Assembly: GCA_900155405.1 (NCBI GenBank)
Contig: LT700188.1
Location: 124,001 to 188,000, forward strand
DNA: 64,000 nt
Direction: 5' to 3'
Source: Negativicoccus massiliensis
Lineage (GTDB): Bacteria; Bacillota; Negativicutes; Veillonellales; Negativicoccaceae
Shown: one piece after another, positions 26,395-42,565 of the stretch
Layout of the letters: each line of letters starts with the position of its first letter
Numbering within the stretch: the stretch's first letter is position 1
The notes under the pieces: model-generated
Told to the model about the DNA's origin: nothing
Database searches by the model: none
What the model saw: only the letters and a program-made list of their open reading frames with translations
Translations under genes and position numbers: made by a program

Positions 26395-26802
26395 ATGGAA
26401 GAAATGATTCTTCGCTGCCCCGTTTTGATCAAGTCCAAGGTTACGCAGGCATTGAAAGACAATATGCTGCGCGAAGTGCAAACCAATTTGGACCAAGTCG
26501 AACAAGAATTGCAGCAGATCGAATTTCAGGCTAAACGCCTGTTAACCGAGCAGGCTCGCATTGATGCACAGGGTCTGATCAATTTGCGCGCGCAGATTGA
26601 ACAGAATAAAGATAAACTGATGCAGATGAAAGCGAAGCTTACCGAAGAGCAAAAACGCATCAACGAGCTCGAAATGGGCGCGGAAATTCCGCGCGGCCAA
26701 ATGGAGCAGACCGTTACTGTCAAAGTCGGCGACGATTTGAACAAGTACATGGGAGCAGAAATTTTGCTGGAAGACGGCAAAATTATCGCATTTCGCAACT
26801 GA
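26395..26802 (+). CDS. ylqD: YlqD-family coiled-coil protein
   Basis: 135 residues. YlqD is a conserved Firmicute protein of unknown function found between the KH gene and rimM. The middle (about residues 25-90) is a heptad-rich helix with many Gln, Glu and Lys (DQVEQELQQIEFQAKRLLTE). The C-terminal part (TVKVGDDLNKYMGAEILLED) looks like a small beta domain. AGGAGG precedes the ATG. The rimM start overlaps its stop codon by one base. Confidence 0.85.
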   Translation: MEEMILRCPVLIKSKVTQALKDNMLREVQTNLDQVEQELQQIEFQAKRLLTEQARIDAQGLINLRAQIEQNKDKLMQMKAKLTEEQKRINELEMGAEIPRGQMEQTVTVKVGDDLNKYMGAEILLEDGKIIAFRN

Positions 26803-27308
26803 TGTCTACGGATATGCTGGTGGTGGGCCGGATCGTCGCCGCGCATGGAGTGCGCGGTGAGGTACGGCTGAAACCGGACACGGACCGACCGGGGATGTTG
26901 ACGGCGTTGCCGCATCTTTACTTGGGCGGCAACCGTTACCAAATCCAAAGTGCGCGTTTTCATAAACAAATGCTGATTGTGCAGTTCAAAGGCATCGCTG
27001 ACCGCAATGCGGCCGATGCGTTAATCGGCCTTTGGGCGGAGCTTCCTCGCGAAGAACTGCCGCCGCGCGCGCAAGGACAATTTTATATTGTCGATTTGGT
27101 CGGCATGGAAGTCGTCACCGAAAGCGGCACCGTACTCGGTACCTTGCAGGAGGTTTTACAGCCGGGAGCCAACGACGTGTTTGTCGTGCGCGATGAACGC
27201 GAAGAAATTCTCGTTCCGGCGCTGAAACGCGTTGTGAGTGACATCGATCTCGATGCCAAACGACTCACGGTGACCGACGAGTTCTGGGCGAACTATCATG
27301 AAAATTGA
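26802..27308 (+). CDS. rimM: Ribosome maturation factor RimM
   Basis: Binds S19 and helps mature the 30S head. 168 residues. The N-terminal barrel opens with [20 protein letters not shown]; the PRC-barrel half has [34 protein letters not shown] and ILVPAL. It overlaps ylqD by one base and trmD by 11. A decayed copy of bases 26841-26913 occurs at 33866-33938. Confidence 0.95.
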
Positions 27309-28026
27309 TATTGTCACGCTCTTTCCGGAATTTGCCGATGCTTTTTTTTCTCATAGCATTATTTCGCGAGCCCGCCAAGCGGGCTATTTGACGTTAGGTA
27401 CAGTCAATCCGCGCGATTTCACGGACAATAAATTCCGGCACGTCGATGATACGCCATACGGCGGAGGTAACGGCATGCTATTGCAAGCCGAGCCGATCTT
27501 CAAGGCGGTCGAGAGCGTCTTGCCGCAAAAAAGGCCTGACGCCCGCGTGATTTTACTCAGTCCGACCGGCGCGCCTTTTACGCAAAAGAAGGCGAGCGAA
27601 CTGACGCGATACGAGCACTTGGTACTCGTCTGCGGTCATTATGAAGGCATTGACGCGCGCGTGGAAGATCATCTGGTCGACGAAAGCATTTCCATCGGCG
27701 ACTACGTGCTCACGGGCGGAGAATTGCCCGCGTTCATTGTGGCGGACGCCGTGGCGCGTTTGCTGCCGGGAGTCCTCGGTACACACGCCAGCGCGTTTGA
27801 TGAATCGTTCATCGAGGGCACGTTGGAATATCCGCAGTATACGAAACCGGCGGAATTTCGCGGGTATAAAGTACCGGAAATATTGCTGTCGGGTCATCAC
27901 GCCAATATCGCGCGGTGGCGTCGCAAGCAATCATTGTTGCGCACGCGTGAGCGCCGTCCCGATTTATGGCGAAAACTGGTATTAAGCGATACCGACCGAA
28001 AATTACTGGCAGAGGAAGATACTTGA
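27298..28026 (+). CDS. trmD: tRNA (guanine-37-N1)-methyltransferase
   Basis: Makes m1G37 in tRNAs to prevent +1 frameshifting. 242 residues. Trefoil-knot motifs include [33 protein letters not shown] and [14 protein letters not shown]; the C-terminal domain has [19 protein letters not shown]-like sequence (here [11 protein letters not shown]). It overlaps rimM by 11 bases and shares one base with the next start (TGATG). Confidence 0.97.
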
Positions 28027-28598
28027 TGGCGCATTTTTCTATCGGACTTGTCCATTATCCTATTTATAATAAACACGGCGACATCATCACAACGGCGCTG
28101 ACCAACTATGATATTCACGACTTGGCGCGGTCGGCGACGACTTACGGCGTGGAAAATTATTATATTATCCATCCGAATTTCGCCCAGCGCAAGCTGGCCG
28201 AGGAAATCATGGAGCATTGGCAGACCGGATTCGGCAGTACCTATAATCCGGATCGCAAAGACGCCTTCGCTCATGTTAAGCTTCGTGAAAAGCTCGCGCA
28301 AGTACGGGAAGAAATTCATCGCGAAACGGGGCATCCGCCGCAAATCATTACCACGGATGCGCGCACTTACCCCAATACCGTCACATATCGGCAGGTACGG
28401 GAATGGTTGAAAACCACCGACAACTCATACTTGCTGCTTTTCGGTACGGGGTACGGCATGACGAAAGAAGCCATGCAATCGTTCGATTATATTTTAGAGC
28501 CGATTTACGGTGCCGGCGCTTACAATCATTTGAGCGTACGGTCCGCGGCCGCTATCATGTTGGACCGCCTTTGCGGAACCGAATGGTGGCAAGCATAA
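28026..28598 (+). CDS. SPOUT-like RNA methyltransferase (TM1570-type)
   Basis: 190 residues from the ATG at 28026 that overlaps the trmD stop. The sequence (HFSIGLVHYPIYNKHGDIIT near the N terminus, LLFGTGYGMTKEAM and YNHLSVRSAAAIMLDRL near the C terminus) fits the SAM-dependent RNA methyltransferase family typified by Thermotoga TM1570, which also lies after trmD. The GTGYGM loop and the NHLSVRSAAAI helix match the cofactor-binding knot. The RNA target is unknown. rplS, the usual neighbour of trmD, is not here. Confidence 0.8.
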   Translation: MAHFSIGLVHYPIYNKHGDIITTALTNYDIHDLARSATTYGVENYYIIHPNFAQRKLAEEIMEHWQTGFGSTYNPDRKDAFAHVKLREKLAQVREEIHRETGHPPQIITTDARTYPNTVTYRQVREWLKTTDNSYLLLFGTGYGMTKEAMQSFDYILEPIYGAGAYNHLSVRSAAAIMLDRLCGTEWWQA

Positions 28599-28610
28599 GG
28601 GGGAATTTTC

Positions 28611-29351
28611 ATGTCCGGACACTCTAAATGGTCCAACATTAAACATAAAAAAGGTAAAAACGACGCTATTCGCGCTAAAATCACGACGAAAATCGGTAAG
28701 GAAATTACCGTAGCCGCTCGCTTGGGCGGCGCCGATCCGACCGGTAACATGCGTTTGAAGCTCGCCTTGCAGAAGGCGCGTGAAAACAACGTTCCGAAAG
28801 ACAACATTCAGCGCGCCATCCAAAAAGGGATCGGCGCCACCGACGGCGGAGACTACGAAGAAATTACCTACGAAGGTTACGGCCCGTCCGGCGTCGCTCT
28901 TGTGGTTGAAGTCATGACCGATAATCGCAACCGCGCGGCGGCTGACGTGCGCCATGCCTTTTCTAAGCACGGCGGAAACCTCGGTGAATCCGGCAGCGTC
29001 ACCTGGATGTTTAAACGTAAAGGCGTGTTCGTTCTCCCGGGCGATGCCGGTGACGAGGAAGAACTCATGATGATGGCGCTTGACGCCGGCGCGGAAGACT
29101 TCAAAAATGATGATGACGACTATGAAGTCTTGACGACTCCGGAAAATTACGATGCTGTCGAAAAAGCCTTCCAAGACGCCGATATTGAAATGACGATCAG
29201 CAAAATCACCATGGTGCCCGACACCACCATCGCCTTAGACGGCGATGACGCCCGCAAAATGCAAAATCTGCTGGACGCGTTGGATGATCTTGACGATGTC
29301 AAAGACGTTTACAGCAACGCGGAACTTCCCGACGACGAAGAGGAAGAATAA
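28611..29351 (+). CDS. yebC: YebC/PmpR-family protein
   Basis: 246 residues, full length. SGHSKWSNIKHKKGKNDAIR is the hallmark N terminus, followed by GGADPTGNMRLKLALQKARE and YEGYGPSGVALVVEVMTDN. Family members act as transcription regulators or as translation factors at polyproline stalls; sequence does not decide which. AAGGGGGAA precedes the ATG. A strong terminator follows, and beyond it a tracrRNA-like sequence on the minus strand. Confidence 0.95.
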   Translation: MSGHSKWSNIKHKKGKNDAIRAKITTKIGKEITVAARLGGADPTGNMRLKLALQKARENNVPKDNIQRAIQKGIGATDGGDYEEITYEGYGPSGVALVVEVMTDNRNRAAADVRHAFSKHGGNLGESGSVTWMFKRKGVFVLPGDAGDEEELMMMALDAGAEDFKNDDDDYEVLTTPENYDAVEKAFQDADIEMTISKITMVPDTTIALDGDDARKMQNLLDALDDLDDVKDVYSNAELPDDEEEE

Positions 29352-29357
29352 TAGAAG

Positions 29358-29391
29358 CAAAAAAGACGATGCGAACGCATCGTCTTTTTTA
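29358..29391 (+). terminator. Terminator of the trmD-yebC operon (copy 1)
   Basis: AAAAAAGACGATGC and GCATCGTCTTTTTT around GAAC. An identical sequence occurs at 33953-33985 next to the true tracrRNA. Confidence 0.92.
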
Positions 29392-29540
29392 TTTTGAAAA
29401 ATAAATTGGTAACTGTAGTAAAGCAAGTCAAATGTAAAAAATAAAATGCAAGCACTAAAAAAACACTCCGAAGAGTGCTTTTAGACTACATAGGCAGAGC
29501 CCCGAAGGGCGATGTGGATAAATTTTTATTTGTACTCATA
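29358..29540. repeat. Segmental duplication, copy 1 (yebC terminator plus tracrRNA body)
   Basis: About 183 bases matching 33953-34136 in the same orientation with a few substitutions and one single-base indel. The first 38 bases are identical. The match fades inside the anti-repeat, near 29537. Confidence 0.92.
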
Positions 29541-29551
29541 GTACCATGCAT
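29457..29551 (-). ncRNA. Second tracrRNA-like sequence with diverged anti-repeat
   Basis: Minus-strand copy of the tracrRNA body at 34053-34147. The hairpin with GCCCTTCGGGGC and the terminator GCACTCTTCGGAGTG plus seven Ts are preserved with two changes. The 5' anti-repeat (bases 29528-29549) differs from the cas-side copy but can still pair with the CRISPR repeat start through several G-U pairs, with one A-A mismatch in the lower stem. No good -35 box is present on the minus strand, unlike the cas-side copy. It could be a weak second tracrRNA, a decoy, or a dead remnant. Confidence 0.55.
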
Positions 29552-29871
29552 ATAAAACAGTTGAAAGGCAAAAAAATGAAGATGCTGGTCAGGAAGAAAA
29601 GTATCTTCACTTTATCAGATGAGAAAATGTATGTACACGGGAAAATCTATCGACCAACTTTCCTTATTGTGTGATACCGACAATAGCATCTGCTCTACGT
29701 ACCCTATCTGCCCGGGGCGTACACTTCAAAGGGACGTTTTGACAATACCGTACTATGCAGGTAGTTGGTAATAGCATATGTCGAGTATTGCTTGTTCCGC
29801 TCGCAACCGATTTCGTGTGCAGCTTTGACGAGAATACAATTGAGTTTGGAAATAAAAGCATACAAACGTTA
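29552..29871. other. Intergenic region before the metal transporter
   Basis: About 320 bases without a supportable gene. A minus-strand frame (about 29863 to a stop at 29704) has protein-like composition (LVKAAHEIGCERNKQYSTYA) but no start with a ribosome site and no recognised family; it may be a gene remnant. Confidence 0.4.
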
Positions 29872-29900
29872 TTGAAAATCATTTTCATAAATGGTATAAT
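29872..29900 (+). promoter_or_regulatory. Promoter of the metal ABC transporter operon
   Basis: TTGAAA (29872-29877), 17 bases, TATAAT (29895-29900), with an extended -10 TGG. Predicted start near 29907 gives a leader of about 118 bases. Confidence 0.8.
29873..29887 (+). promoter_or_regulatory. Fur-type operator (7-1-7 inverted repeat)
   Basis: TGAAAAT, C, ATTTTCA is a perfect 7-1-7 palindrome like the minimal Fur-family box. It covers most of the -35 element, so a bound metallorepressor would block transcription. The regulator could be Fur, Zur or an MntR-like protein; none is encoded nearby. Confidence 0.65.
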
Positions 29901-29929
29901 ATGCAAGAATCAGTTCTGAACTCGAGCAA

Positions 29930-30010
29930 AGGTCGGTTGTATTATATCCTTACCTCTCTCAAACTATCGCCGCAAGGCGGGGCGGACTTTGCTCTGACGT
30001 TCGGGAAAAT
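29930..30010 (+). promoter_or_regulatory. Structured leader of the metal transporter operon
   Basis: GAGCAAAG near 29929 can pair with CTTTGCTC near 29988, enclosing an inner CGCC-GCAA-GGCG hairpin. I do not recognise a described metal riboswitch in it. It may simply be a structured 5' leader. Confidence 0.35.
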
Positions 30011-30024
30011 AAAGGAGGACATGT

Positions 30025-30975
30025 ATGAAAATTAGTTGGAAACAGATCGCGACAGGTATGCTTGCGGTGATGGTGATGGTGTTGGTCGGTTGTGGCGGTA
30101 CCAAAGATGATACGCATGCGGCCGCTCCGGGCAAATTAAAAGTGGTAGCGACGACGACGATGCTCGCGGATTTGAGCCGTCAGATCGGTGGCGATGCGGT
30201 AGAAGTAACCGGCTTAATGGGGCCGGGGGTGGATCCGCATTTGTATCAAGCCAGCGCCGGGGATGTCAAAGTGATGACGGATGCCGACGTCGTTGTATAT
30301 AACGGCTTGCATTTGGAAGGTAAGATGGGTGAAATCTTCAGTAAGCTGAAACAGGATAAAAAGGCTACTATTTGTGTAGCAAACAACTTAGATCCGTCGA
30401 CATTGCTTCAATATGAAGATGATGACGGAGTGCAGGCTACCGACCCGCATATCTGGTTTGACGTGAAGAACTGGATGCTGGCGGCGGAAGAAGTGTGCAA
30501 AGGATTGGCCGCGAAAGATCCGGCACACAAAGATTTGTACAAAGCCAATTATGAAAAATATTTGGCAGAGCTGAAAAAAGCGGACGAATATGTGGCCAAA
30601 CGTGCCGCGGAAATCCCGCAGGAGCGTCGCGTTCTCGTCACGGCACATGACGCATTCCAATACTTTGCTCGGGCGTACGGATTTACGGTCAAAGGTTTAC
30701 AGGGGGTCAGCACGGAAGCGGAAGCAGGCGCGATTGACGTTCGTGAACTGTCCGACTTCATCGTGACGCACCAGATCCGTTCGATTTTCGTCGAATCATC
30801 CGTTCCGCATAAAACCATTGAGGCGGTGCAGGAAGCTTGCAAGGCAAAAGGTTGGGACGTAAAGATCGGCGGCGAATTGTATTCCGATTCGTGCGGCGCG
30901 CCTGGTACTCCGGGTGGCGATTATATCGGTATGGTCAAAGAAAATATCGATACTATTGTTACGGGCCTGAAATAA
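30025..30975 (+). CDS. Metal ABC transporter substrate-binding lipoprotein (TroA/MntC-like)
   Basis: Captures Mn2+ or Fe2+ (possibly Zn2+) for import. 316 residues. The N terminus is a lipoprotein signal ending in LVGCG. Cluster A-I ligands can be read as His in DPHLYQ, His in DPHIWFD, Glu in STEAEAGA and Asp in LYSDSCG. A His-His-Glu-Asp set is typical of Mn/Fe-binding members, while Zn-binders usually have a third His and a His-rich loop, absent here. AAGGAGG precedes the ATG. First gene of a four-gene operon under a Fur-type operator; a hairpin separates it from the ATPase gene. Confidence 0.93.
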   Translation: MKISWKQIATGMLAVMVMVLVGCGGTKDDTHAAAPGKLKVVATTTMLADLSRQIGGDAVEVTGLMGPGVDPHLYQASAGDVKVMTDADVVVYNGLHLEGKMGEIFSKLKQDKKATICVANNLDPSTLLQYEDDDGVQATDPHIWFDVKNWMLAAEEVCKGLAAKDPAHKDLYKANYEKYLAELKKADEYVAKRAAEIPQERRVLVTAHDAFQYFARAYGFTVKGLQGVSTEAEAGAIDVRELSDFIVTHQIRSIFVESSVPHKTIEAVQEACKAKGWDVKIGGELYSDSCGAPGTPGGDYIGMVKENIDTIVTGLK

Positions 30976-30982
30976 TATCGAC

Positions 30983-31012
30983 GGCGGGTGCGGAGAGAGC
31001 GCCCGCCTTTTT
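30983..31012 (+). terminator. Intra-operon terminator after the binding-protein gene
   Basis: GGCGGGTGC and GCGCCCGCC with a seven-base loop, then TTTTT. It probably allows partial read-through so the binding protein is made in excess over the membrane components. Confidence 0.8.
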
Positions 31013-31041
31013 GTTATTAAGATACATGAAGGGGGATTCAT

Positions 31042-31806
31042 ATGGAGTGGGCGGTAGAAGTCGAGGACATGACCGTTGCCTATGATGAACGACCGGTTCT
31101 TTGGGATGTGGACATGAAGATTCCGAAAGGATCGCTCGCGGCGATTGTCGGACCGAACGGCGCAGGGAAATCGACATTGATCAAGGCGATGTTGGGATTG
31201 TTGACGAAAATTTCCGGTTCGGTCAAATTCTATTTGGACGGTCGATTGGCCGTGTCGCGCGATGATTTTAAACGGATTGCTTATGTGCCGCAGAGCGGAA
31301 GTGTAGACTGGGATTTTCCGACAACGGTGCTGGACGTTGTGCTAATGGGACGTTACGGTCATCTCGGCTGGTTTAAACGACCGGGTGCGGCGGAGCGGGA
31401 GATGGCGATGGATGTGTTGCGGAAAACGGGCATGGAAGCTTACGTTGACCGCCAAATCAGTCGTCTATCGGGCGGCCAGCAGCAGCGTGTGTTTTTAGCG
31501 CGCGCATTGATTCAGGAAGCGGATATTTATTTTATGGACGAGCCGTTTAAGGGGGTCGACGCCAAAACGGAAAAGGCGATTGTCGCTTTGTTGCAAGAGA
31601 TGAAATCACGCGGCAAAACGGTCATTGTTGTGCATCACGATTTGGCGACGGTGGCGGAATATTTTGACTGGGTTACGATGATTAACTTGCGTCGTATTGC
31701 GATGGGGCCCGTGGAAGAAGTGTTTACGAGCGAGCACATCGAAGCGGCTTATAATGCCCGCAATCCGTTGCGGCGGGAGGGGCTCCATGCTGTCGCCGCT
31801 GAGTGA
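31042..31806 (+). CDS. Metal ABC transporter ATP-binding protein
   Basis: 254 residues. Walker A GPNGAGKST, Q-loop YVPQSGSVDWDFP, ABC signature LSGGQQQRVFLARAL, Walker B IYFMDEP and switch His in VVHHD. It fits the TroB/MntB branch (SVDWDFP is typical). AGGGGGATT precedes the ATG. It overlaps the first permease by 20 bases. Confidence 0.95.
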   Translation: MEWAVEVEDMTVAYDERPVLWDVDMKIPKGSLAAIVGPNGAGKSTLIKAMLGLLTKISGSVKFYLDGRLAVSRDDFKRIAYVPQSGSVDWDFPTTVLDVVLMGRYGHLGWFKRPGAAEREMAMDVLRKTGMEAYVDRQISRLSGGQQQRVFLARALIQEADIYFMDEPFKGVDAKTEKAIVALLQEMKSRGKTVIVVHHDLATVAEYFDWVTMINLRRIAMGPVEEVFTSEHIEAAYNARNPLRREGLHAVAAE

Positions 31807-32695
31807 TTATACCTTCCAGATCGTGGCGGCGGGGACCATGCTGTTGGGATTAGCGAGCGGCGTTACGGGAACGTTTGCCGTATTGCGCAAGGAAAGTCTC
31901 ATCGGAGACGGATTGCCGCATGCGTCGTTTCCGGGCGTGGTAGCGGCCTTCATGTTTTTGGCGGTGAAAGATTTGGAAGTGTTGCTGACCGGTGCGGCGG
32001 TCGCATCCTTGCTGTGCATGGCGGCGATTGCCTTGACGGTACGGTATACTAAGGTCAAGTTTGATGCCGCATTGGCGACATTTCTTGCCGCTTTTTTCGG
32101 CGTCGGCATGATGCTGATGACGTATGTGCAGCATACGGACAACCCCAATCAGGCGGGGTTGTCGAAGTTTATTTTCGGACAGGCGGCCACTATGCTGGCG
32201 CGCGACGTGGAAATTACCGCGGCGGTGGCGGCAATGATTTTACTGCTGGCAGTCATTTTTTGGAAAGAATTAAAACTGGTGGCGTTTGATGCCGATTTCG
32301 CGCGCAGTTTACAGCTGCCCGTCAGAATGGCGCAATTGGTGTACGGTTTGATGCTGGTGGCCTCGATTATCATCGGATTACAGTCTGTCGGTGCTATTTT
32401 GATGAGCTCGTTGCTCATCGCTCCGGCGGTGGCGGCACGGCAATGGACGGATAATCTCGGCACCATGGCGGTACTGGCAGGGGGTATCGGGGCGCTGTCT
32501 TGCGGTATCGGTACGTATGCCAGTGCGATCGTGAAAGGTTTGCCGACGGGGCCGGCGATCGTCGTTGCCGCCTCAATCGTGGTACTGCTCAGCTTGCTGT
32601 TTGCGCCCGGAAGGGGCATCATTGCACGTTACCGGGTGCATCGGGAGGCACGCCGGCGTTGGAAGGAGGGCGATATCAATGTCCGCCCAAACTGA
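31787..32695 (+). CDS. Metal ABC transporter permease (TroC-like)
   Basis: 302 residues with about eight or nine hydrophobic segments of the ABC-3 family. Start at 31787 is supported by GGGAGGGG; longer in-frame starts lie within the ATPase gene. Family features: FAVLRKESLIGDGLPHASFP near the N terminus and VGAILMSSLLIAPAVAARQW toward the C terminus. It pairs with the next gene as a heterodimeric membrane channel. Overlaps both neighbours. Confidence 0.93.
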   Translation: MLSPLSDYTFQIVAAGTMLLGLASGVTGTFAVLRKESLIGDGLPHASFPGVVAAFMFLAVKDLEVLLTGAAVASLLCMAAIALTVRYTKVKFDAALATFLAAFFGVGMMLMTYVQHTDNPNQAGLSKFIFGQAATMLARDVEITAAVAAMILLLAVIFWKELKLVAFDADFARSLQLPVRMAQLVYGLMLVASIIIGLQSVGAILMSSLLIAPAVAARQWTDNLGTMAVLAGGIGALSCGIGTYASAIVKGLPTGPAIVVAASIVVLLSLLFAPGRGIIARYRVHREARRRWKEGDINVRPN

Positions 32696-33800
32696 GATTA
32701 TTCTTATCGCGATGTTGGCGGCATTCGCGTGTGCTTTGCCAGGGGTGTTTCTGGTACTGCGCAAAATGTCCATGGTCGCCGACGCTATCACACATACCGT
32801 ATTCTTGGGAATCGTCATTGCATTTTTTGCAACGGAAAATTTAAACTCGCCCTGGCTGCTCATCGGAGCAACGCTCATGGGATGCTTTACCGTGTGGTGT
32901 ACTGAAAGCCTGCAACGAACCCGGCTGGTCAGCGAAGATGCATCCATCGGAATTGTATTTCCGCTATTATTCTCCATCGGCTTGATCTTGGTCAATCTAT
33001 ACGGTAGTAATGTTCATCTGGATACGGACTCCGTCCTGCTCGGGGAACTCGCCTTTGCGCCCTTTGACCGCGTGCGTGTGAATGGTGCCGATTGGGGCGC
33101 TGTGTCCATGTGGGTGTTGACAGGAATTTGTTTGCTTAATACCGTAGTCATTGTGGCGGTATTCAAAGAATGGAAACTGGTTACCTTTGATGCGTTATTG
33201 GCGGCCATGTACGGATTTTCGCCGATATGGATGCACTATTTGCTGATGACACTCGTCTCCGTGACCGTTGTTGCTTCATTCCAAGCGGTCGGCGCCATCC
33301 TCGTTATCGGATTGATGATCGGACCGGCCGCGACGGCCTACTTGCTTACCAAAGATTTGCGGAAAATGCTTATTTTGGCGGCGAGCATCGGTGCCCTATC
33401 CGCGTGGCTCGGTACGGAGATTGCTTTTTGGCTGGATGTTTCGATTGCAGGCGCGATTGCGGGAACAATAGGAGGAGTATTTTTATTGACGGTGATCGCG
33501 ACACCCAAATCGGGTATTATTGCCCGGTATCGGCGTTTAAAACGTCTGCGCTTACAGTATGGAGAAGAAACGGTTTTGTTCCATTTGTTGACTCATGAAG
33601 GCACGGCTGTACAGGCGCAAGAGGCGGGAGTCGGTACACTTTATGAGCATTTGCGCTGGAAACCGGAATTTGCCGATCTCATTTGTCGTCGTCTCGAAGC
33701 GGGGCATTTTGTACGTATTCATCGTGGCATGGTGCACTTGACCGAGAGCGGGCGCGCACGTGCTTATCGCGTTTCAGAAACGCTTTTTGCGGAGCAATAA
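32679..33800 (+). CDS. Metal ABC transporter permease with C-terminal winged-helix-like domain (TroD-like)
   Basis: 373 residues. The start at 32679 has GGAAGGAGGG upstream and overlaps the previous gene by 17 bases. Residues 1 to about 285 are an ABC-3 permease (LPGVFLVLRKMSMVADAITH, VGAILVIGLMIGPAATAYLL). The last 85 residues (RRLKRLRLQYGEETVLFHLL, then LYEHLRWKPEFADLICRRLE and a HLTESGRARAY wing) look like the DNA-binding/wing region of DtxR/MntR-type regulators. TroD-type permeases are known to be longer than TroC-type; the role of this tail is not clear. Confidence 0.9.
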   Translation: MSAQTEIILIAMLAAFACALPGVFLVLRKMSMVADAITHTVFLGIVIAFFATENLNSPWLLIGATLMGCFTVWCTESLQRTRLVSEDASIGIVFPLLFSIGLILVNLYGSNVHLDTDSVLLGELAFAPFDRVRVNGADWGAVSMWVLTGICLLNTVVIVAVFKEWKLVTFDALLAAMYGFSPIWMHYLLMTLVSVTVVASFQAVGAILVIGLMIGPAATAYLLTKDLRKMLILAASIGALSAWLGTEIAFWLDVSIAGAIAGTIGGVFLLTVIATPKSGIIARYRRLKRLRLQYGEETVLFHLLTHEGTAVQAQEAGVGTLYEHLRWKPEFADLICRRLEAGHFVRIHRGMVHLTESGRARAYRVSETLFAEQ

Positions 33801-33865
33801 TGATTGAAAAATCTCTCATAGGAGAAATCTTTCTTGTGTGAATTGTGTTAGTCATGTGAGATGGA
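33801..33865. other. Short gap after the metal transporter operon
   Basis: About 65 bases with no strong terminator; a weak inverted repeat (ATCTCTCATAGGAGA) is the only structure. It leads into the rimM remnant. Confidence 0.4.
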
Positions 33866-33938
33866 ACGCATGGAGTGTGCCGTGAGGTACGACTGAACCT
33901 GTACGCGGACCGACCGGAGATGTTGGCGGTGCTGCCGC
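33866..33938 (+). pseudogene. Decayed fragment of rimM
   Basis: 73 bases aligning without gaps to rimM bases 26841-26913, with 12 mismatches by my count (about 84% identity). It is the segment just after the rimM start (from HGVRGEV to MLTALP). It has no start, an in-frame stop (TGA in the copied GTACGACTGAAC region depends on frame) and no continuation. Immediately afterwards comes the copy of the yebC terminator, so sequence between rimM and the yebC end is missing. Confidence 0.85.
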
Positions 33939-33952
33939 TTCCGAAAGGAAGA

Positions 33953-34136
33953 CAAAAAAGACGATGCGAACGCATCGTCTTTTTTATTTTGAAAAATAGA
34001 TTGGTAACTATAATAAAGGGCATCAAGATATGAAAAATAAAATGCGAGCACTAAAAAAACACTCCGAAGAGTGCTTTTAGTCTACATAGGTAGAGCCCCG
34101 AAGGGCGATGTGGATAAATCTTAATTTGAACTCGTA
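33953..34136. repeat. Segmental duplication, copy 2 (yebC-type terminator plus tracrRNA body)
   Basis: Direct copy of 29358-29540, 4.6 kb downstream and just before cas9. The leading terminator hairpin is identical to that of yebC, although no yebC gene stands in front of it. Confidence 0.92.
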
Positions 34137-34147
34137 GTGCATATCCT
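34053..34147 (-). ncRNA. tracrRNA of the type II-A CRISPR system
   Basis: On the minus strand, 5' GGATATGCACTACGAG (from about 34147) is an anti-repeat. It pairs with the repeat start: a seven-pair lower stem against GTTTGAG, a bulge of A opposite GAG, then GTAGTG/CACTAC and ATATCC/GGATAT. The body has a GCCC-TTCG-GGGC hairpin flanked by ACAT/ATGT, and ends in GCACTCTTCGGAGTG plus seven Ts. Expected length is about 95 nucleotides. A consensus minus-strand promoter lies at 34154-34182. Divergent to cas9. Confidence 0.9.
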
Positions 34148-34153
34148 GCCTAT

Positions 34154-34182
34154 ATAATAGCGATAAAAAAATAGTGTGTCAA
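34154..34182 (-). promoter_or_regulatory. tracrRNA promoter
   Basis: On the minus strand TTGACA (34182-34177), 17 bases, TATTAT (34159-34154). The predicted start falls at the first base of the anti-repeat. Confidence 0.88.
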
Positions 34183-34281
34183 GTTTATTTCACTCAAAAA
34201 TTATCAATAAAAATTAATGCGATTATTTTAGCGCATAACGCATTGCGACGCTTTTTGCATATGGAATCTAATGATTTCGTA

Positions 34282-34290
34282 TGCTATATT
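34282..34290 (+). promoter_or_regulatory. Probable extended -10 promoter of cas9
   Basis: TGCTATATT is a good extended -10; no -35 at normal spacing (TTGCAT is 24 bases upstream). It would leave a leader of about 138 bases before cas9. Confidence 0.45.
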
Positions 34291-34434
34291 TAATTTATCA
34301 GAGTAACAGATCAAAGCGGAGCGTCATTGATGGAATAGCGTGTCAGCGCGAGCAATATTATGGCAGTGATATAAAAATCTGCAGAAATTTTTTATTCTTT
34401 TAATCCGGCTGCGACGATGAGGAGGACTTTCGCA

Positions 34435-37400
34435 ATGAAGAAAAACAACGATTACTATATCGGTTTGGACATGGGAACCAATTCCGTCGGTTGGGCAGTT
34501 ACCGACACCAAGGGGCGTTTGCAGCGGTTCAATAAAAAAGACATGTGGGGCTCACGCCTTTTTGAGGAAGCGAAAACAGCCGCTGAGCGACGTACCTTCA
34601 GAACGTCGCGGCGTCGGTATGATCGCGTGAGACAACGCATCGAATTTTTGCAGGATATTTTCGCGCCGATCATCGCTAAAAAGGATTTTGAATTTTTTAT
34701 GCGTCTGAACGAAAGTAAATTTTATCCCGAAGACAAGAAGACGGATGGCCGCTTCGCCCTTTTTAATGATGCGGATTTTACCGACGTGGAATACTTTAAA
34801 CTATATCCCACGATTTACCATTTGCGCGCGGCGTTGCTTAAACCGAATCACATTACCGATCCGCGGTTATTGTACTTAGCCATTCATCATATTGTTAAAA
34901 ACCGCGGACATTTCCTGTTCGCCATCACAGATATGGAAAGTATTCGCAGCTTTCAAATGATCTATACGCAACTTTCCGAGCATTTGAAACGTATCAATCC
35001 GGATTTTGAATTGCCGGTGGATGTGCAAGATAAATTTGCCGCGATCTTACTGAATGAAGAACTGAACAAGCGGGACAAGAAAAAACAACTGAAGGAACTT
35101 TGCCCGCATGAGGATAAACGCTTGGAATACGCCTTTAAAGCGATTATCGGTGATAAAGCCAACTTGAAAGATATATTTGGCGTGGAAGAATATGATGAAG
35201 GCACGAAAAAAGAAGTCAACTTTGAAAAAGCGGACTACGACGCAGATAAAGACGAGATTGAGAGCGTAATCAAAGAAAATATCCATGTGCTTAACGCGTT
35301 GAAAGCGGTCTATGACTGGACTGTTTTGACGAAAATTTTAGGCGACTATGCGTATATTTCGGATTCGCAGGTCGCGCTTTATGATGCGCATGCAAAGGAT
35401 TTACGCATTCTGAAAAGCCTCATCAAAAAATATGCCAAATCGCAGTATGCGGACGCTTTCCGGCATGAGAACGTCAAGGGTAACTACGCCAACTATGTCG
35501 GCAGCACCAACTATGACAATAAACAACCGGTCATTGACAATCCGTCGGTAACGCAAGAAGACATAAATAAATATTTTGCAGCTATCCTTTCGGACATTAC
35601 TCCGGACGAAAGCGATAGAGAGAGTTATCAATATATCGCTGAGCGCTTAGATAAAGAAGAAGCGCTGCCCAAATTGCGCACGAAAGCTAACAGCGTGTTG
35701 CCGCACCAAATTCACAAAATCGAATTGGAAAAAATTCTGGCCAACGCCGCAATGAATTTTCCGTTCTTGCAGGAGAAAGATAGTAGCGGCTATACCGCAG
35801 CGCAAAAAATCGTCAAGATTATGACGTTCCGAATTCCGTACTATGTCGGACCGCTCAACACGTATCATCATGTCGATCAGGGCGGCCATGCATGGATGGT
35901 GCGCAAAGCGGAGGGGAAAATTACGCCTTGGAACTTTGACGAAAAAGTGGACAGAGAGGCTTCAGCGGAAAAATTTATCCGCAACATGACCAACAAATGC
36001 ACCTACTTGATCGGCAAGGACGTTATCCCCAAACAATCGCTGCTGTACAGCAGGTACAAAGTCCTTAACGAATTAAATAACTTAAAAGTTAACGGCGTGC
36101 CGATTTCGGTCGAGCTGAAACAGAAGATTTACGAAGAACTGTTCAAGAAACAAGTCAACGTCACATTCAAGCAACTCAAAACTTTTCTCAAAACGCAAGG
36201 GGAAGATGCTGACGAAATCATTTTAAGCGGTGTTGATGAAGCCGCGCATAAATTTACCAATAATCTTCAGACGTACCATAAATTCCAAGCGATATTTGGC
36301 GATACAATTGAATTTGAGCCGCAACGCTCCATGGTCGAAGATATTATTCGCTGGAAATGCCTGATGGGCGATGATATTGCCATGTGGAAACACAAGATCG
36401 AAAAAGAATATGGCGATCAGCTCAGCGATGAGCAATTGAAGCAAATCACGCGACTTAACTTCAACGGTTGGTCCCGTTTGTCACAAGAGTTTCTTACCGA
36501 TGTACCGGGCGTTGATATCGAATCCGGCGAGGTATACTCGGGGATTATGGACGCTTTGTGGAAAACGAATGAAAACGTTATGCAATTATTGAGTTCCCGT
36601 TTCACGTTTGCGGAAAAAGTAAAAAAACAAAACCAGGGTACCGGGCAGATCACAAAAATCACGTATGATGAAGTCATGAAAGATACTTACCTGTCGCCGG
36701 CGGTAAAACGCTCCGTTTGGCAGGCGATTACTTTAGTCGAAGAGATCCGCAAAATTCGCAAAGCGGATCCGAAACGCATTTTTGTCGAAATGACGCGCCA
36801 GCCGGACGTGATAAAGGAGCGCAAACTGTCTCGCCGTACGCAACTTTTAAGGACATATATAGCGATCGGAAACGACATTGCGGAATATGAAAAGGAACAT
36901 GTATCCACACTCATAAAGCAACTGGAAAGCAAAAAAGATGAAGATTTGCGGCAGAAAAAACTGTATCTTTATTTCACACAGATGGGACGTTGCATGTATA
37001 CGGGAGAGCGTATCGATCTTTCTTCCTTATTGCATGATACCAACAGTAACATCTACGATATAGATCATATCTACCCGCGTTCTCTTACGAAAGATGACAG
37101 TCTTGACAATACAGTCTTATGTAAGAAGGAGATTAACCTACAGAAAGGTAATAAGTATCTACATCAAGCTTTCACGGCAAAAGAACTCGAAAAGCAATAC
37201 GGATACTGGAAGGCGCTCAAAGAGAAAAAGCTGATCAGTGAAAGGAAATTTTCACGGCTCATGCGCACTACCGATCTCACCGCCGACGAATTGGCCGGAT
37301 TTATCAGTCGGCAATTGGTGGAAACCAGCCAAATGGTCAAAGCCACGGCGGATATTTTGGAAAAAATCTATCCGAATGTCACGATCGTTTACGTGAAAGC

Positions 37401-38610
37401 GCGGACTGTAAGTGACTTCCGTCATGATTATGATTTGCCGAAAGTGCGCGCCTTGAATGATTGTCACCATGCCCATGATGCGTACTTGAATATTGTCGTG
37501 GGGAATGTCTACTACGAAAAATTCACTAAAAGCCCGTTCCGCTTTATTCAAAACCAAAAGGGAAAGGGAGAAATCAAATACAATCTTTATCGCCTGTTTG
37601 ATAGAGACGTTAAAGTCGGCGATCGCATTATTTGGAACACCAAAGAAGATTTAGCGCACGTCAAAGCAACCCTCGAACGGGATACGGTAAATGTTGTACT
37701 CATGCCGGTAGAACGACACGGAAAGTTTTATGACGCAACCATTCAAAAGAAGAGCACCACAAAAGAAACAATGGTCCTGCCATTGAAAGGTTCTGATGAA
37801 CGCTTACAAGATATTTCCAAATACGGGTATTATCGCAGTCCATCCGGTATGTCATTTATGGTAGTTCAACACGAGGTTAAAGGTAAGAAACGAGTCACCA
37901 TCGAACAGGCTTTGCTGGTTTACAAAAATAAGTTAAAAAGCGAAAAAGATTACGCAAAATATTGCGAAGATTTTTTGAAGTTACAGAAACCGAAAGTATT
38001 ATTTAAAAACATAAAATTTGGCAGTAAGATTTTATTCGATGGATACCCATACCTTTTGAAAGGGCGAACGGGAAAGAAGATTACATTGGCGGATGCGCAA
38101 TCCCTATTTCTTTCCAACCGGGAGCTAAACATACTAAAAAGAGTTACCAAAATTTCCGATGATATTGATCACAAAGTGAAGAGTCGAGTGAAAATAACCG
38201 ATGAAGAGTGGGCTACACTGTGGAAGTCCGTGGTGGAGCAAAACGTTAAGGGTAAGTTTCGTGATCGCCTGGGAACTTTAAATGGAATACTAAAAGGTAG
38301 ACAAATTAAATTATCAGAAGATGAGCAAAAGAGAGTAAACGAACTGGATTCGAAGGATCAGGAAGAATATTTGAGCCAAATTTTATTAGAACGGTTTTTG
38401 CGATTCACCACAGAAGAAAAGACCCGGCTCTTACTTCAAGTGATTTCATTTAGCAGTAATACAAGAGGAGTGAACCTTTGCCTGATTGGCGGCAGTGAGA
38501 GAACGGGAACTATTGCGATCAGCAACAATATTACGGATCATTCGGTCATTTTGATTAATGAATCGCCCACCGGTCTCTTTACCAATCGTACTGTTTTGAA
38601 TCAGCCATGA
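34435..38610 (+). CDS. cas9: CRISPR-associated endonuclease Cas9 (type II-A)
   Basis: RNA-guided DNA nuclease. ATG at 34435 is chosen because GAGGAGGA lies 9 bases upstream and the protein begins MKKNNDYYIGLDMGTNSVGW; an ATG 18 bases earlier overlaps that site. 1,391 residues. RuvC-I Asp12; Arg-rich bridge helix ERRTFRTSRRRYDRVRQRIE; RuvC-II Glu785 (FVEMTRQPD); HNH His878 (YDIDHIYPRS); RuvC-III HHAHDAYLN with Asp1015. All nuclease residues are present, so it should be active. The C terminus (SPTGLFTNR) aligns with the end of S. pyogenes Cas9, but the Arg-x-Arg PAM-reading pair is not visible there. It overlaps cas1 by four bases. Confidence 0.98.
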   Translation: MKKNNDYYIGLDMGTNSVGWAVTDTKGRLQRFNKKDMWGSRLFEEAKTAAERRTFRTSRRRYDRVRQRIEFLQDIFAPIIAKKDFEFFMRLNESKFYPEDKKTDGRFALFNDADFTDVEYFKLYPTIYHLRAALLKPNHITDPRLLYLAIHHIVKNRGHFLFAITDMESIRSFQMIYTQLSEHLKRINPDFELPVDVQDKFAAILLNEELNKRDKKKQLKELCPHEDKRLEYAFKAIIGDKANLKDIFGVEEYDEGTKKEVNFEKADYDADKDEIESVIKENIHVLNALKAVYDWTVLTKILGDYAYISDSQVALYDAHAKDLRILKSLIKKYAKSQYADAFRHENVKGNYANYVGSTNYDNKQPVIDNPSVTQEDINKYFAAILSDITPDESDRESYQYIAERLDKEEALPKLRTKANSVLPHQIHKIELEKILANAAMNFPFLQEKDSSGYTAAQKIVKIMTFRIPYYVGPLNTYHHVDQGGHAWMVRKAEGKITPWNFDEKVDREASAEKFIRNMTNKCTYLIGKDVIPKQSLLYSRYKVLNELNNLKVNGVPISVELKQKIYEELFKKQVNVTFKQLKTFLKTQGEDADEIILSGVDEAAHKFTNNLQTYHKFQAIFGDTIEFEPQRSMVEDIIRWKCLMGDDIAMWKHKIEKEYGDQLSDEQLKQITRLNFNGWSRLSQEFLTDVPGVDIESGEVYSGIMDALWKTNENVMQLLSSRFTFAEKVKKQNQGTGQITKITYDEVMKDTYLSPAVKRSVWQAITLVEEIRKIRKADPKRIFVEMTRQPDVIKERKLSRRTQLLRTYIAIGNDIAEYEKEHVSTLIKQLESKKDEDLRQKKLYLYFTQMGRCMYTGERIDLSSLLHDTNSNIYDIDHIYPRSLTKDDSLDNTVLCKKEINLQKGNKYLHQAFTAKELEKQYGYWKALKEKKLISERKFSRLMRTTDLTADELAGFISRQLVETSQMVKATADILEKIYPNVTIVYVKARTVSDFRHDYDLPKVRALNDCHHAHDAYLNIVVGNVYYEKFTKSPFRFIQNQKGKGEIKYNLYRLFDRDVKVGDRIIWNTKEDLAHVKATLERDTVNVVLMPVERHGKFYDATIQKKSTTKETMVLPLKGSDERLQDISKYGYYRSPSGMSFMVVQHEVKGKKRVTIEQALLVYKNKLKSEKDYAKYCEDFLKLQKPKVLFKNIKFGSKILFDGYPYLLKGRTGKKITLADAQSLFLSNRELNILKRVTKISDDIDHKVKSRVKITDEEWATLWKSVVEQNVKGKFRDRLGTLNGILKGRQIKLSEDEQKRVNELDSKDQEEYLSQILLERFLRFTTEEKTRLLLQVISFSSNTRGVNLCLIGGSERTGTIAISNNITDHSVILINESPTGLFTNRTVLNQP

Positions 38611-39491
38611 GCTGGCGTACAGTTGTCATCACGAAACCTGCCAAACTCGAATTGCGTTTGAACTACTTGGTTGTTCGCAGCATCGACCATGTGGAAAAGA
38701 TAAGCCTGACGGAATTGGGAGCACTGGTGATCGAAACGCTGCAAGTGTCGATTACCAGCTCTCTCATCAGCGCGCTTTTGGCACAAGAAATCAGGATTAT
38801 CATTTGCGATGAACATCATGATCCGCAAGGGGAAATCCTACCTTACTACGGATGCCATGATTGCTCTCGCAAAATACAGATGCAAATGGGTTGGCAGGAG
38901 ACGACAAAGAAGCTTTTATGGCAACAAATTGTCCGACAAAAGATTATGAACCAACGGAAAACATTAGAATATTTTTGTTCGGATGCGACCGATGTGGTGG
39001 CGAAGCTGGCGCAGTATGAGACGCAAGTTGAAATCGGCGACGCCACTCATCGGGAAAGTCTCGTCGCCAAAGAATACTTTCCCGCGCTTTTGGGAAAAGG
39101 ATTTACGCGCGCTGCCGAGACGGCGCAAAATGCCGCATTGAACTACGGTTACCAAATTATCATTTCCATTTTTTCCCGTGAAATCAAAATTGCCGGTTAC
39201 CTTACCGAATTGGGAGTTTTTCATGACAGTCAGCATAATCATTTCAATTTGTCATCCGATCTTATGGAGCCGTGGCGACCGGTTGTAGACGCATTTGTCA
39301 GAGAAAAAGAATGGGAACAATTTGCCGTGGAGGAAAAACATATGATGCAACGTCTCGTGACGCAGGAAGTAACCTTTCGCGGGCAAAAGCAAAGCGTGCC
39401 TAACGCCATTCGCATGTACGTGAATTCGGTGTTTCAGGCGCTGAATCATAATGACATTTCGCAAGTGCATTTTTTCAACCATGAGTTATAG
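38607..39491 (+). CDS. cas1: CRISPR integrase Cas1 (type II-A)
   Basis: Catalytic subunit of the spacer integrase. 294 residues, typical of type II. MSWRTVVITKPAKLELRLNY is the family N terminus. Metal ligands can be read as Glu in HRESLVAKEYFPALL, His in SQHNHFNLSSDLM and Asp in DLMEPWRPVVD. Start overlaps the cas9 stop (ATGA). It works with Cas2 and Csn2 encoded next. Confidence 0.97.
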   Translation: MSWRTVVITKPAKLELRLNYLVVRSIDHVEKISLTELGALVIETLQVSITSSLISALLAQEIRIIICDEHHDPQGEILPYYGCHDCSRKIQMQMGWQETTKKLLWQQIVRQKIMNQRKTLEYFCSDATDVVAKLAQYETQVEIGDATHRESLVAKEYFPALLGKGFTRAAETAQNAALNYGYQIIISIFSREIKIAGYLTELGVFHDSQHNHFNLSSDLMEPWRPVVDAFVREKEWEQFAVEEKHMMQRLVTQEVTFRGQKQSVPNAIRMYVNSVFQALNHNDISQVHFFNHEL

Positions 39492-39801
39492 ATTTATGCG
39501 TATTTTAGTGCTCTTCGACCTGCCGACGGAAACGTCGCTGGATTTACGGGAATACAGACGGTTTCGCAAAATATTGCTGGAAATGGGATTTATTATGCTG
39601 CAGGAATCGGTCTATACGAAAATTGCGCTAACGACAACCATTTCCGAGCAAATTACCAATCGTCTGCGGCATGAAAAGCCGGCGAACGGATTGGTACAGA
39701 TATTGCGCGTGACGGAAAAACAATTTGAAAACATGGAAACGTTGGTAGGGGAATATAACAGCAACGTGATTGATACCGATGAAAAGGTGGTCATCCTATG
39801 A
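39481..39801 (+). CDS. cas2: CRISPR-associated Cas2
   Basis: Structural partner of Cas1. 106 residues from the ATG at 39481, which overlaps the cas1 end by 11 bases; MSYRFMRILVLFDLPTETSL matches type II-A Cas2 starts. An ATG at 39496 is the alternative. The ferredoxin-like fold shows as LVLFDLP and FRKILLEMGFIMLQESVYTK. Its stop overlaps csn2 (ATGA). No ribosome site is obvious, which suggests coupled translation. Confidence 0.95.
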   Translation: MSYRFMRILVLFDLPTETSLDLREYRRFRKILLEMGFIMLQESVYTKIALTTTISEQITNRLRHEKPANGLVQILRVTEKQFENMETLVGEYNSNVIDTDEKVVIL

Positions 39802-40463
39802 TCTTAAGCCACCCGGTTTTCGATGCGCCGATCGATCTTGCCCATAATAATCTCGTCGTTTTGGAACATCCGCTTCTGTACCGCGCATTGGTAGCGGAAT
39901 TAATTGCGCAAAGTGAAGGTGAAACGGGACGATTTCTTTTAATGGAAAATTATGAAGAAAAGTCGATTGGAAAATACCTTTCAATCATTCATAATCCATT
40001 TCGGCTATGCGAGAATGATCATAAAATGCGCACCGCCTTGTATAAATTACTTGAAAAAGAAGTACAGACGCTAGACTTTGAATATTACAAAGAAGTGGAA
40101 TCCAAGATACTTCAATTTTTGCAGCATGTAAGTATGCAATCCGCATATCCGCTCACGATGACAGATTCTATCAGCATGACAGATATCTTCAAACTGGGTC
40201 AATTGCAACTGGAATTAACCAAAGACTCCGTGCCGGAGCGTCTCTATGAATACATCCGCGCGTTGCACCGCTTGGCAGGCGCGCAATGCGTGGTTATGTA
40301 TAATGTAAGAAACATATTTACCGATACGGAAGCGGAGGTGTTTTTAAAAGAAATTAGCGAACAGGAATTATCTGTTTTGTTTTTGGAAAGGAGTGTGCCG
40401 CCTATCGTCACAAAATACGAGAAACTATATATAGTGGATCAGGATTTGTGTGAAATCAGCTAA
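39798..40463 (+). CDS. csn2: CRISPR adaptation protein Csn2
   Basis: Forms a ring on DNA ends during spacer acquisition and defines subtype II-A. 221 residues, the short Csn2 form. Recognisable pieces: MILSHPVFDAPIDLAHNNLV at the N terminus, LLMENYEEKSIGKYLSIIHN, KLLEKEVQTLDFEYYKEVES and YIRALHRLAGAQCVVMYNVR near the C terminus. The CRISPR array starts only 24 bases after its stop. Confidence 0.93.
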   Translation: MILSHPVFDAPIDLAHNNLVVLEHPLLYRALVAELIAQSEGETGRFLLMENYEEKSIGKYLSIIHNPFRLCENDHKMRTALYKLLEKEVQTLDFEYYKEVESKILQFLQHVSMQSAYPLTMTDSISMTDIFKLGQLQLELTKDSVPERLYEYIRALHRLAGAQCVVMYNVRNIFTDTEAEVFLKEISEQELSVLFLERSVPPIVTKYEKLYIVDQDLCEIS

Positions 40464-40487
40464 TGGTATAAATTAAACACAACATTA
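40464..40487 (+). promoter_or_regulatory. CRISPR leader with extended -10
   Basis: Only 24 bases separate the csn2 stop from the first repeat. TGGTATAAA at 40464-40472 is an extended -10 placing the start near 40479, just before the first repeat; TTGTGT lies 15 bases upstream inside csn2. The leader for spacer integration must extend into csn2. Confidence 0.55.
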
Positions 40488-41117
40488 GTTTGAGAGTAGT
40501 GTCATATCCAATCCATCTCAAACCGAAAGAATTAGCGGACAGAAAAATCGACAGTTTGAGAGTAGTGTCATATCCAATCCATCTCAAACTAAGGCGGAGA
40601 AAAAGGACTTTACCCACCAGTTTGAGAGTAGTGTCATATCCAATCCATCTCAAACCTCTCTCCCTGCTTTCTGACTAAAGTATAAGTTTGAGAGTAGTGT
40701 CATATCCAATCCATCTCAAACGGCGGCAGCAGATTTTAGCGAAGATTAACGGTTTGAGAGTAGTGTCATATCCAATCCATCTCAAACGGCGGCAGCAGAT
40801 TTTAGCGAAGATTAACGGTTTGAGAGTAGTGTCATATCCAATCCATCTCAAACGGCGGCAGCAGATTTTAGCGAAGATTAACGGTTTGAGAGTAGTGTCA
40901 TATCCAATCCATCTCAAACGGCGGCAGCAGATTTTAGCGAAGATTAGCGGTTTGAGAGTAGTGTCATATCCAATCCATCTCAAACAGTTGCGGTCACCGG
41001 AGCGACCACCGAGGTGTTTGAGAGTAGTGTCATATCCAATCCATCTCAAACCTTCCAGCCGTGCTGTTTGGCAAGCATGAAGTTTGAGAGTAGTGTCATA
41101 TCCAATCCATCTCAAGC
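40488..41117 (+). CRISPR. Type II-A CRISPR array: 10 repeats of 36 bp, 9 spacers of 30 bp
   Basis: Repeats start GTTTGAGAGTAGTGTCATAT and end CCAATCCATCTCAAAC, at 40488, 40554, 40620, 40686, 40752, 40818, 40884, 40950, 41016 and 41082. The last ends CTCAAGC instead of CTCAAAC, so it is the distal end and the leader is on the csn2 side. All spacers are 30 bp. Spacers 4, 5 and 6 are identical and spacer 7 differs by one base (GATTAGCG for GATTAACG). The first and last eight bases of the repeat are inverted (GTTTGAGA/TCTCAAAC). Orientation agrees with tracrRNA pairing. Confidence 0.98.
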
Positions 41118-41470
41118 AACGATGACAACGTCGGACAAACTCACAAAAAATGAAATCGCCAATGCGCACCGGCGAGGCGTTTTTTGTTCAAATATTTATT
41201 TGTCAATTAAGACGCCTGTGGCGTCTTTTTTATTTGCTTTCAGCATGACGGCACAAAATAGCATGCTCGGAGAGCGGCGAGATAGTTTGCGTGCAGCGTC
41301 ATATTTTCGTTGTGCCGCAAGGCGAAAGAGGTAGCGCTTTTTTACATACGCAGTCCACGTTGTCGATTGGGGATCATTTTTTACTGTCTGTTAATATTTC
41401 ATTGCGTATCTCTTTCACGGCGACATGCTATACTTATACTAATCGGAAAAGCAGTTTATAAAGGAGAAAC
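41118..41470. other. Intergenic region after the CRISPR array
   Basis: No gene seen. It holds two terminator-like hairpins (one ending in GGCGTTTTTTG near 41185, one at 41209-41231) and an extended -10 (TGCTATACT, 41426-41434) that should drive the glycosyltransferase gene. Confidence 0.6.
41209..41231. terminator. Terminator downstream of the CRISPR array
   Basis: AAGACGCC/GGCGTCTT stem with a TGT loop and T run. Confidence 0.88.
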
Positions 41471-42565
41471 ATGAAGTATAAACCGAAAGTTTGTCTTCTT
41501 TCCGCGTCGATCGGGCAAGGGCACGTACAGGCGGCGCGCGCGGTGGCGGAAGCGTTGAAACGGCATCCTACGGGATATCGCGTGCAATCGTTGGATTTTT
41601 TGTCGCGTGATATGATATCGCTTGATTATTGGATGCGCGAGACATATATCAAGATGATCGATTTATTTCCGCTGATTTATGATCTTTTATACCATCAATC
41701 GCAACGTCGGCACGGCGGTAAACAGGTTCGCAGTCTGCTGGCGCGCACGTTTCGCAGTCGCATGCGGCATTTATTGGAAGTGCTCTCACCGGACGCGTTG
41801 GTGTTGACGCATCCGTTTCCCGCGGCAGCGGCCGCTAAGCTGGTGGAAAAAGGCGAGCTTCATATCCCGATTGTGACGGTGATTACGGACTTTGATTTAC
41901 ACCAACTATGGGTGTATAAAAACATCACGGCGTACTGCGTACCGTCGGTGCAGGTGCGTGACGAACTGATCGCGGCGGGCATTGAAAAAGAACGCGTGTT
42001 TGTAACGGGCATCCCGATTATGCAGCGGTTTTACGAGATGAAAAAAGCCTCTCTGCGCGAACCGGGGACCGTGTTAATCATGGGGGGCGGCACTGGTCTG
42101 GGGTCGGTGAAGGATATTTTATGGCGCCTGACGCAAGTGGAAGCGGTGCAACGCGTTATCGTTGTGACGGGACAAAATCTCACGCTGTTTGATGAAATTC
42201 AGGAAATGCGAGATGAGTTGCGTGTGCCGTTGGAGTTGTACGGATACACGAATGAAATCCCGCGACTGATGGCTCGCGCGTCATTATTGGTGACGAAGCC
42301 GGGAGCGTTGACCACGACGGAAGCGATGACCATGCATTTGCCGATGTTATTGGTGGACGCTATTCCGGGGCAAGAGGAAGCGAACGCGGCGCACTTGGAA
42401 AAGATCGGCTGCGCAAAATGGATTTTACGGGAGCAGCTGGTGCCGGTCACACGCGAATTTTTTGCCGGGGAAGCGACTTGGTATACAGGTGATCAACAAA
42501 AAACGCAGCACAGCGCCCAACTTGTCGCCGATATTATCGACTCGTTGGTAACTTTTGAAAATTGA
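41471..42565 (+). CDS. GT28-family glycosyltransferase (MGDG synthase/UgtP-like)
   Basis: Probably transfers a sugar from a UDP-sugar to diacylglycerol, making membrane glycolipids. 364 residues. The N-terminal MGDG-synthase half has VCLLSASIGQGHVQAARAVA (the GxGH loop) and VLTHPFPAAAA; the C-terminal GT28 half has VLIMGGGTGLGSVKDI, YGYTNEIPRLMARASLLVTK and PGALTTTEAM, which bind the nucleotide sugar. AAAGGAG precedes the ATG. The acceptor lipid cannot be told from sequence. Followed by a terminator and a convergent gene. Confidence 0.88.
   Translation: MKYKPKVCLLSASIGQGHVQAARAVAEALKRHPTGYRVQSLDFLSRDMISLDYWMRETYIKMIDLFPLIYDLLYHQSQRRHGGKQVRSLLARTFRSRMRHLLEVLSPDALVLTHPFPAAAAAKLVEKGELHIPIVTVITDFDLHQLWVYKNITAYCVPSVQVRDELIAAGIEKERVFVTGIPIMQRFYEMKKASLREPGTVLIMGGGTGLGSVKDILWRLTQVEAVQRVIVVTGQNLTLFDEIQEMRDELRVPLELYGYTNEIPRLMARASLLVTKPGALTTTEAMTMHLPMLLVDAIPGQEEANAAHLEKIGCAKWILREQLVPVTREFFAGEATWYTGDQQKTQHSAQLVADIIDSLVTFEN

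Follow-up and report, generated by a model that had tools for sequence, protein, structure and literature searches.

The window, a stretch of 64,000 nucleotides from Negativicoccus massiliensis, carries on its plus strand pyc, ylxM, ffh, rpsP, khpA, ylqD, rimM, trmD, an RNA methyltransferase gene and yebC. These are followed by a terminator, a first tracrRNA copy (t1), znuACBB, a fragment of rimM (rimM'), a copy of the terminator, a second tracrRNA copy (t2), cas9-cas1-cas2-csn2 and a CRISPR array. Intact rimM (26802-27308, plus strand) and the metal-uptake operon znuA, znuC, znuB, znuB (30025-33800, plus strand) were identified by Pfam. The cas genes (34435-40463, plus strand) form a type II-A gene set, in which Cas9 and Csn2 were recognized by Pfam, and cas1 and cas2 were assigned by their position and by collinear relatives. 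The array (40488-41117, plus strand) has 10 repeats of 36 nt. Names of the genes beyond those tested with Pfam were taken from the sequences and the gene order, and a search of positions 26500-41500 against Rfam at an E value of 0.1 returned no match. For comparison we used the only congeneric genome in the set, G001, a draft assembly, and two family members from other genera, G002 and G003, the latter a metagenome assembly; the present genome is G000.

Homology between the patch beside cas9 and the rimM-yebC region

A patch of approximately 270 bases beside the CRISPR-Cas9 genes is a genuine genomic scar. When the parent locus was aligned with this patch, as the first-pass annotation had proposed, two blocks of 75 and 191 nt were obtained, and both keep the parental order and strand. 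The first block confirms the reported repetition of a rimM fragment: positions 26842-26916 of rimM, the parent of the scar, and 33867-33941, a 5'-truncated relic on the plus strand which is the scar proper, are identical at 63 of 75 positions with no gaps (84%). This match has an E value of 6e-17 in a search of the whole genome (1.36 Mb), and its score was reached by none of 500 dinucleotide shuffles. The second block joins the yebC 3' flank to the tracrRNA, with 90.6% identity over 191 nt between 29354-29542 and 33948-34138 and a whole-genome E value of 2e-69. Its parent begins with the terminator directly 3' of yebC and a spacer (29354-29456, plus strand); terminators likewise follow the yebC stop codon in the relatives, but they are different ones. 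Together, the whole-genome E values and the shuffles exclude chance similarity as the source of the patch.

The terminator and the tracrRNA had both been described as an exact copy, which holds for the terminator, whose copies are identical, while the tracrRNA copies share 92% over 111 nt; the distance from the rimM fragment to the copied terminator block, given as 15 bases, is about 11 nt. The joint, the copied yebC terminator and its spacer occupy 33942-34052 on the plus strand. At the joint itself (33942-33952), a resemblance to the coding tail of yebC (CGAAAGGAAGA versus CGAAGAGGAAGA) was not significant. The rest of the parental interval, 26917-29353, was also sought within 29543-34440, and nothing recognizable was found; one match of 15 nt (E value of 0.035) was taken as chance.

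Next, rimM' was compared with the rimM genes of the four genomes. It shares 63 to 64 of 75 positions with rimM of G000 and G001 and 49 of 75 with that of G002 and G003, and is therefore a fragment of its own lineage; a foreign rimM from the other genera was excluded by the same comparison. The differences from rimM fall 6, 4 and 2 on the three codon positions, and this lack of a bias toward third positions is the expectation for a noncoding relic. No rimM-like relic lies beside the tracrRNA of G002 or G003, so that the case named beforehand as damaging to a duplication, a rimM-like piece next to a tracrRNA in genomes whose own rimM is distant and unrelated, was not encountered. A 30-nt match of the G002 methyltransferase gene, approximately 1.9 kb to the left of its tracrRNA, was rejected as a candidate, being isolated and not derived from rimM. 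Pattern scans of IMG/VR with the scar and with the body of t2 as queries found none.

The two tracrRNA copies

Both tracrRNA copies lie on the minus strand. The complete copy, t2 (34053-34147), has a strong anti-repeat at about 34121-34145, which pairs with the 5' end of the repeat (GTTTGAGAGTAGTGTCATATCC) at about -22 kcal/mol, similar to the -23 kcal/mol of the G002 and G003 tracrRNAs with their own repeats. A promoter-like site, TTGACA-17-TATTAT, is found at 34154-34182 on the minus strand, with 11 of 12 consensus bases. Together with a terminator and a nexus-like hairpin, these features are those of a type II-A tracrRNA, and t2 is predicted to serve Cas9. The locus resembles the type II-A loci of G002 and G003, in which the tracrRNA is divergent from cas9, in having cas9-cas1-cas2-csn2-array and a minus-strand tracrRNA, but differs from them in that a further tracrRNA copy, lacking a promoter, lies 4.6 kb away, just after yebC.

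This additional copy, t1 (29457-29542), is truncated and has a decayed anti-repeat. Its match to t2 ends at 29542, within the anti-repeat and short of the promoter, and no significant homology extends into the promoter region. The pairing of t1 with the repeat, -9.9 kcal/mol, was at the level of shuffled sequences (-10.3 kcal/mol), and a consensus scan of the minus strand upstream of t1 found no promoter-like site. Among the fixed differences between t1 and t2 in the tracrRNA body, those that could be polarized with G002 and G003 (three sites) mapped to t1, with one other site ambiguous. Since the polarized differences map to t1, its pairing is at shuffle level and a promoter-like site is missing, we read t1 as a decaying relic, which would be silent.

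The nexus and the terminator of t1 are intact, and G000 and G001 differ at just one of 86 nt, which could be taken to suggest a second working RNA, either a tracrRNA variant that pairs with another transcript or a regulatory decoy, and changed anti-repeats do redirect Cas9 in designed systems (PMC8224270). Nevertheless, this conservation carries little information, since t1 borders a tract in which G000 and G001 are nearly identical. In addition to the missing promoter-like site and the pairing at shuffle level, the genome contains no second set of repeats for t1, that is, no other repeat outside the array within 3 mismatches of the first 22 nt of the repeat. A working t1 thus appears very improbable, and we would give even less credence to a naturally retargeted tracrRNA, expressed from an unrecognized start, which would pair with a cellular RNA and direct Cas9 to a sequence of the host or of a phage.

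Small CRISPR-related sequences outside an array have a precedent in scaRNA, a repeat-like segment with the same transcriptional orientation as the array and with a predicted start site and terminator of its own (PMC6199352). By contrast, t1 is oriented as a tracrRNA and lacks a promoter-like site, and does not qualify as a scaRNA. We found no report of a duplicated tracrRNA gene in the literature; the nearest case is Streptococcus agalactiae, in which one tracrRNA has two transcript forms (PMC4448216).

The spacers between terminator and tracrRNA (29396-29456 and 33990-34052) contain two small clusters of differences that group by genome and not by copy. This pattern hints at gene conversion between the two spacer copies, to which we give little weight.

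The znu segment and the locus in related genomes

Between the two tracrRNA copies lies a segment (29543-33866, plus strand) made up of 281 nt, the znu operon and 66 nt. Its znu proteins share 91.4% identity with their G002 counterparts, versus 76.1% for the core proteins, and the znu genes therefore have a history different from that of their surroundings. There is no such excess with G003 (70.0% for znu versus 74.9% for the core). As judged from these identities, the comparison shows an exchange of znu with another genus. At the DNA level, homology to the G002 znu locus extends from 29824 to 33796. The truncated ends of the duplicated copies, 29542 in t1 and 33867 in rimM', enclose exactly the znu segment, and no significant homology extends beyond either of them. 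As 281 nt on the left lie beyond recognizable znu homology, the presumed extent of the foreign segment is taken from the ends of the duplicated copies. Among the relatives, this left stretch (29543-29823) is present only in G001, apart from a weak hit of 40 nt, and a short broken reading frame within it (MKMLVRKKSIFTLSDEKMYVHGKIYRPTFLIV) may be another relic.

The scar is carried by two genomes, G000 and G001, and in G001 the same arrangement is found throughout. As G001 was assembled separately, an assembly error in 29350-34150 is unlikely. The event therefore predates the split of these two genomes, a conclusion that also follows from the divergence of rimM', which is 16% from rimM and 4% between G000 and G001. 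In G002, yebC is directly followed by the counterpart of the gene located past the array in G000 (41471), and both znu and CRISPR are missing from that place. Two contig ends of G003 (C12 and C10) lie in the same CRISPR array and have three spacers in common; the contigs can therefore be joined, which places the array directly upstream of a 41471-type gene. CRISPR and that gene are therefore linked in more than one genus. The first-pass annotation had suggested comparing the interval between yebC and cas9 in relatives, and this comparison recovered the scar in G001 and no intact second copy. An order yebC-tracrRNA-cas9 without znu was likewise absent from all of the compared genomes, and the intermediate steps are unseen, which is the weak point of the history proposed below.

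Other differences between the two Negativicoccus genomes were observed along the locus. Between G000 and G001, cas9 (34435-38610) differs at 17.6% of fourfold sites (91% amino acid identity), versus only 2.5 to 9.3% for the genes from ffh to yebC, and the two halves of the locus may differ in their history of exchange. G001 also harbors a tailed-phage prophage between t2 and cas9, which splits the CRISPR locus and encodes an integrase, a CI-like repressor, an Abi-like protein, a terminase, a portal protein and a tail sheath protein. This prophage lies on two contigs of the draft assembly (C4 from 132425 and C1 1-27346), across which continuity is inferred, and its ends have a short AT-rich core in common with 34285-34298 of the window, which is attB-like.

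Spacer 3 (40656-40685), spacers 4 to 7 (40722-40949) and spacer 9 (41052-41081) of the G000 array match the G001 prophage with 1 to 4 mismatches. The 3' flanks of these matches, CGCAGT, CGCAGT and CACAGT, suggest a PAM of the NNCAG kind. The two spacers of G001 itself match its own prophage with 3 to 4 mismatches, and there the flanks are AGCAAA and GTCAAT. Within the G000 array, four consecutive repeat-spacer units (40686-40949) share one spacer sequence, with a single change in the last of them, and represent a tandem duplication.

Proposed history of the locus

The duplicated unit already has the yebC terminator beside the tracrRNA, and CRISPR therefore lay beside yebC before the event. Since the ends of the duplication are also the ends of the znu segment, and the history of znu differs from that of its neighbors, the scar most likely records the insertion of znu. 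The first-pass annotation had proposed a duplication followed by the loss of most of one copy, and that part remains the best reading; its further claim, that the scar records how the CRISPR locus arrived, is probably wrong, the arrival recorded being that of znu. We consider the patch, with a probability of roughly two in three, to be the right-hand scar of an insertion-duplication, in which an insertion of znu with duplication of the target was followed by a loss of approximately 2.4 kb.

Under this model, the ancestral order would have been rimM-trmD-methyltransferase gene-yebC-terminator-tracrRNA-cas9, with the tracrRNA on the minus strand. A foreign znuACBB segment would then have inserted between this housekeeping operon and CRISPR in such a way that it came to be flanked, left and right, by the stretch from within rimM (26842) to within the tracrRNA anti-repeat (29542). 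This could have occurred by a Campbell-type single crossover with a circle bearing znu together with a homologous piece, or by a template switch during replication that gave an equivalent result. The left copy would have retained the intact genes from rimM to yebC and a t1 cut off before its promoter, and the right copy would have started inside rimM and retained the complete t2 and cas9. Subsequently, the right copy, being redundant, would have shed about 2.4 kb, so that rimM', the copied terminator and t2 remained. The copied terminator now probably separates znu from the convergent tracrRNA.

As in known Campbell-type scars, the insert lies between direct copies of the target, each truncated at the end that faces it. 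The target copies on both sides have the same order and strand, the boundaries of the insert coincide with the truncated ends, and the insert has a different history. Unlike in those scars, most of one copy has been lost here, so that the right copy consists of short remnants only; the vector-like insert is a metabolic operon, and the mode of integration is deduced from the arrangement.

The same homologies and the same order could have arisen from a plain tandem duplication from rimM to the tracrRNA, with the second copy mostly deleted and znu arriving later and independently. Tandem duplications are common, but znu would have had to hit exactly the newly formed junction of t1 with rimM', which is one coincidence more than an insertion-duplication requires, and we regard this sequence of events as unlikely. 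Alternatively, the 2.7-kb duplication might never have existed. Template-switch repair is known to leave short templated patches at joints, and at the right end of znu it could have copied the 75-nt rimM patch and, separately, the 191-nt block, in agreement with the fact that just two short pieces are visible. However, independent switches need not keep the parental order and strand, as both pieces do, and this possibility seems to us distinctly unlikely, more so than a tandem origin. We therefore favor the insertion-duplication.

Overall, the patch is a piece of genome history and no new system, and it is of local interest only, beyond the order of events and the duplication of the tracrRNA. 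It would place the steps at one CRISPR locus in sequence, with CRISPR beside yebC first and znu placed between them later. It also provides a clear example of tracrRNA gene duplication, in which the copy bearing the promoter kept its anti-repeat and the other one decayed, and advises care in annotating tracrRNA copies from similarity.
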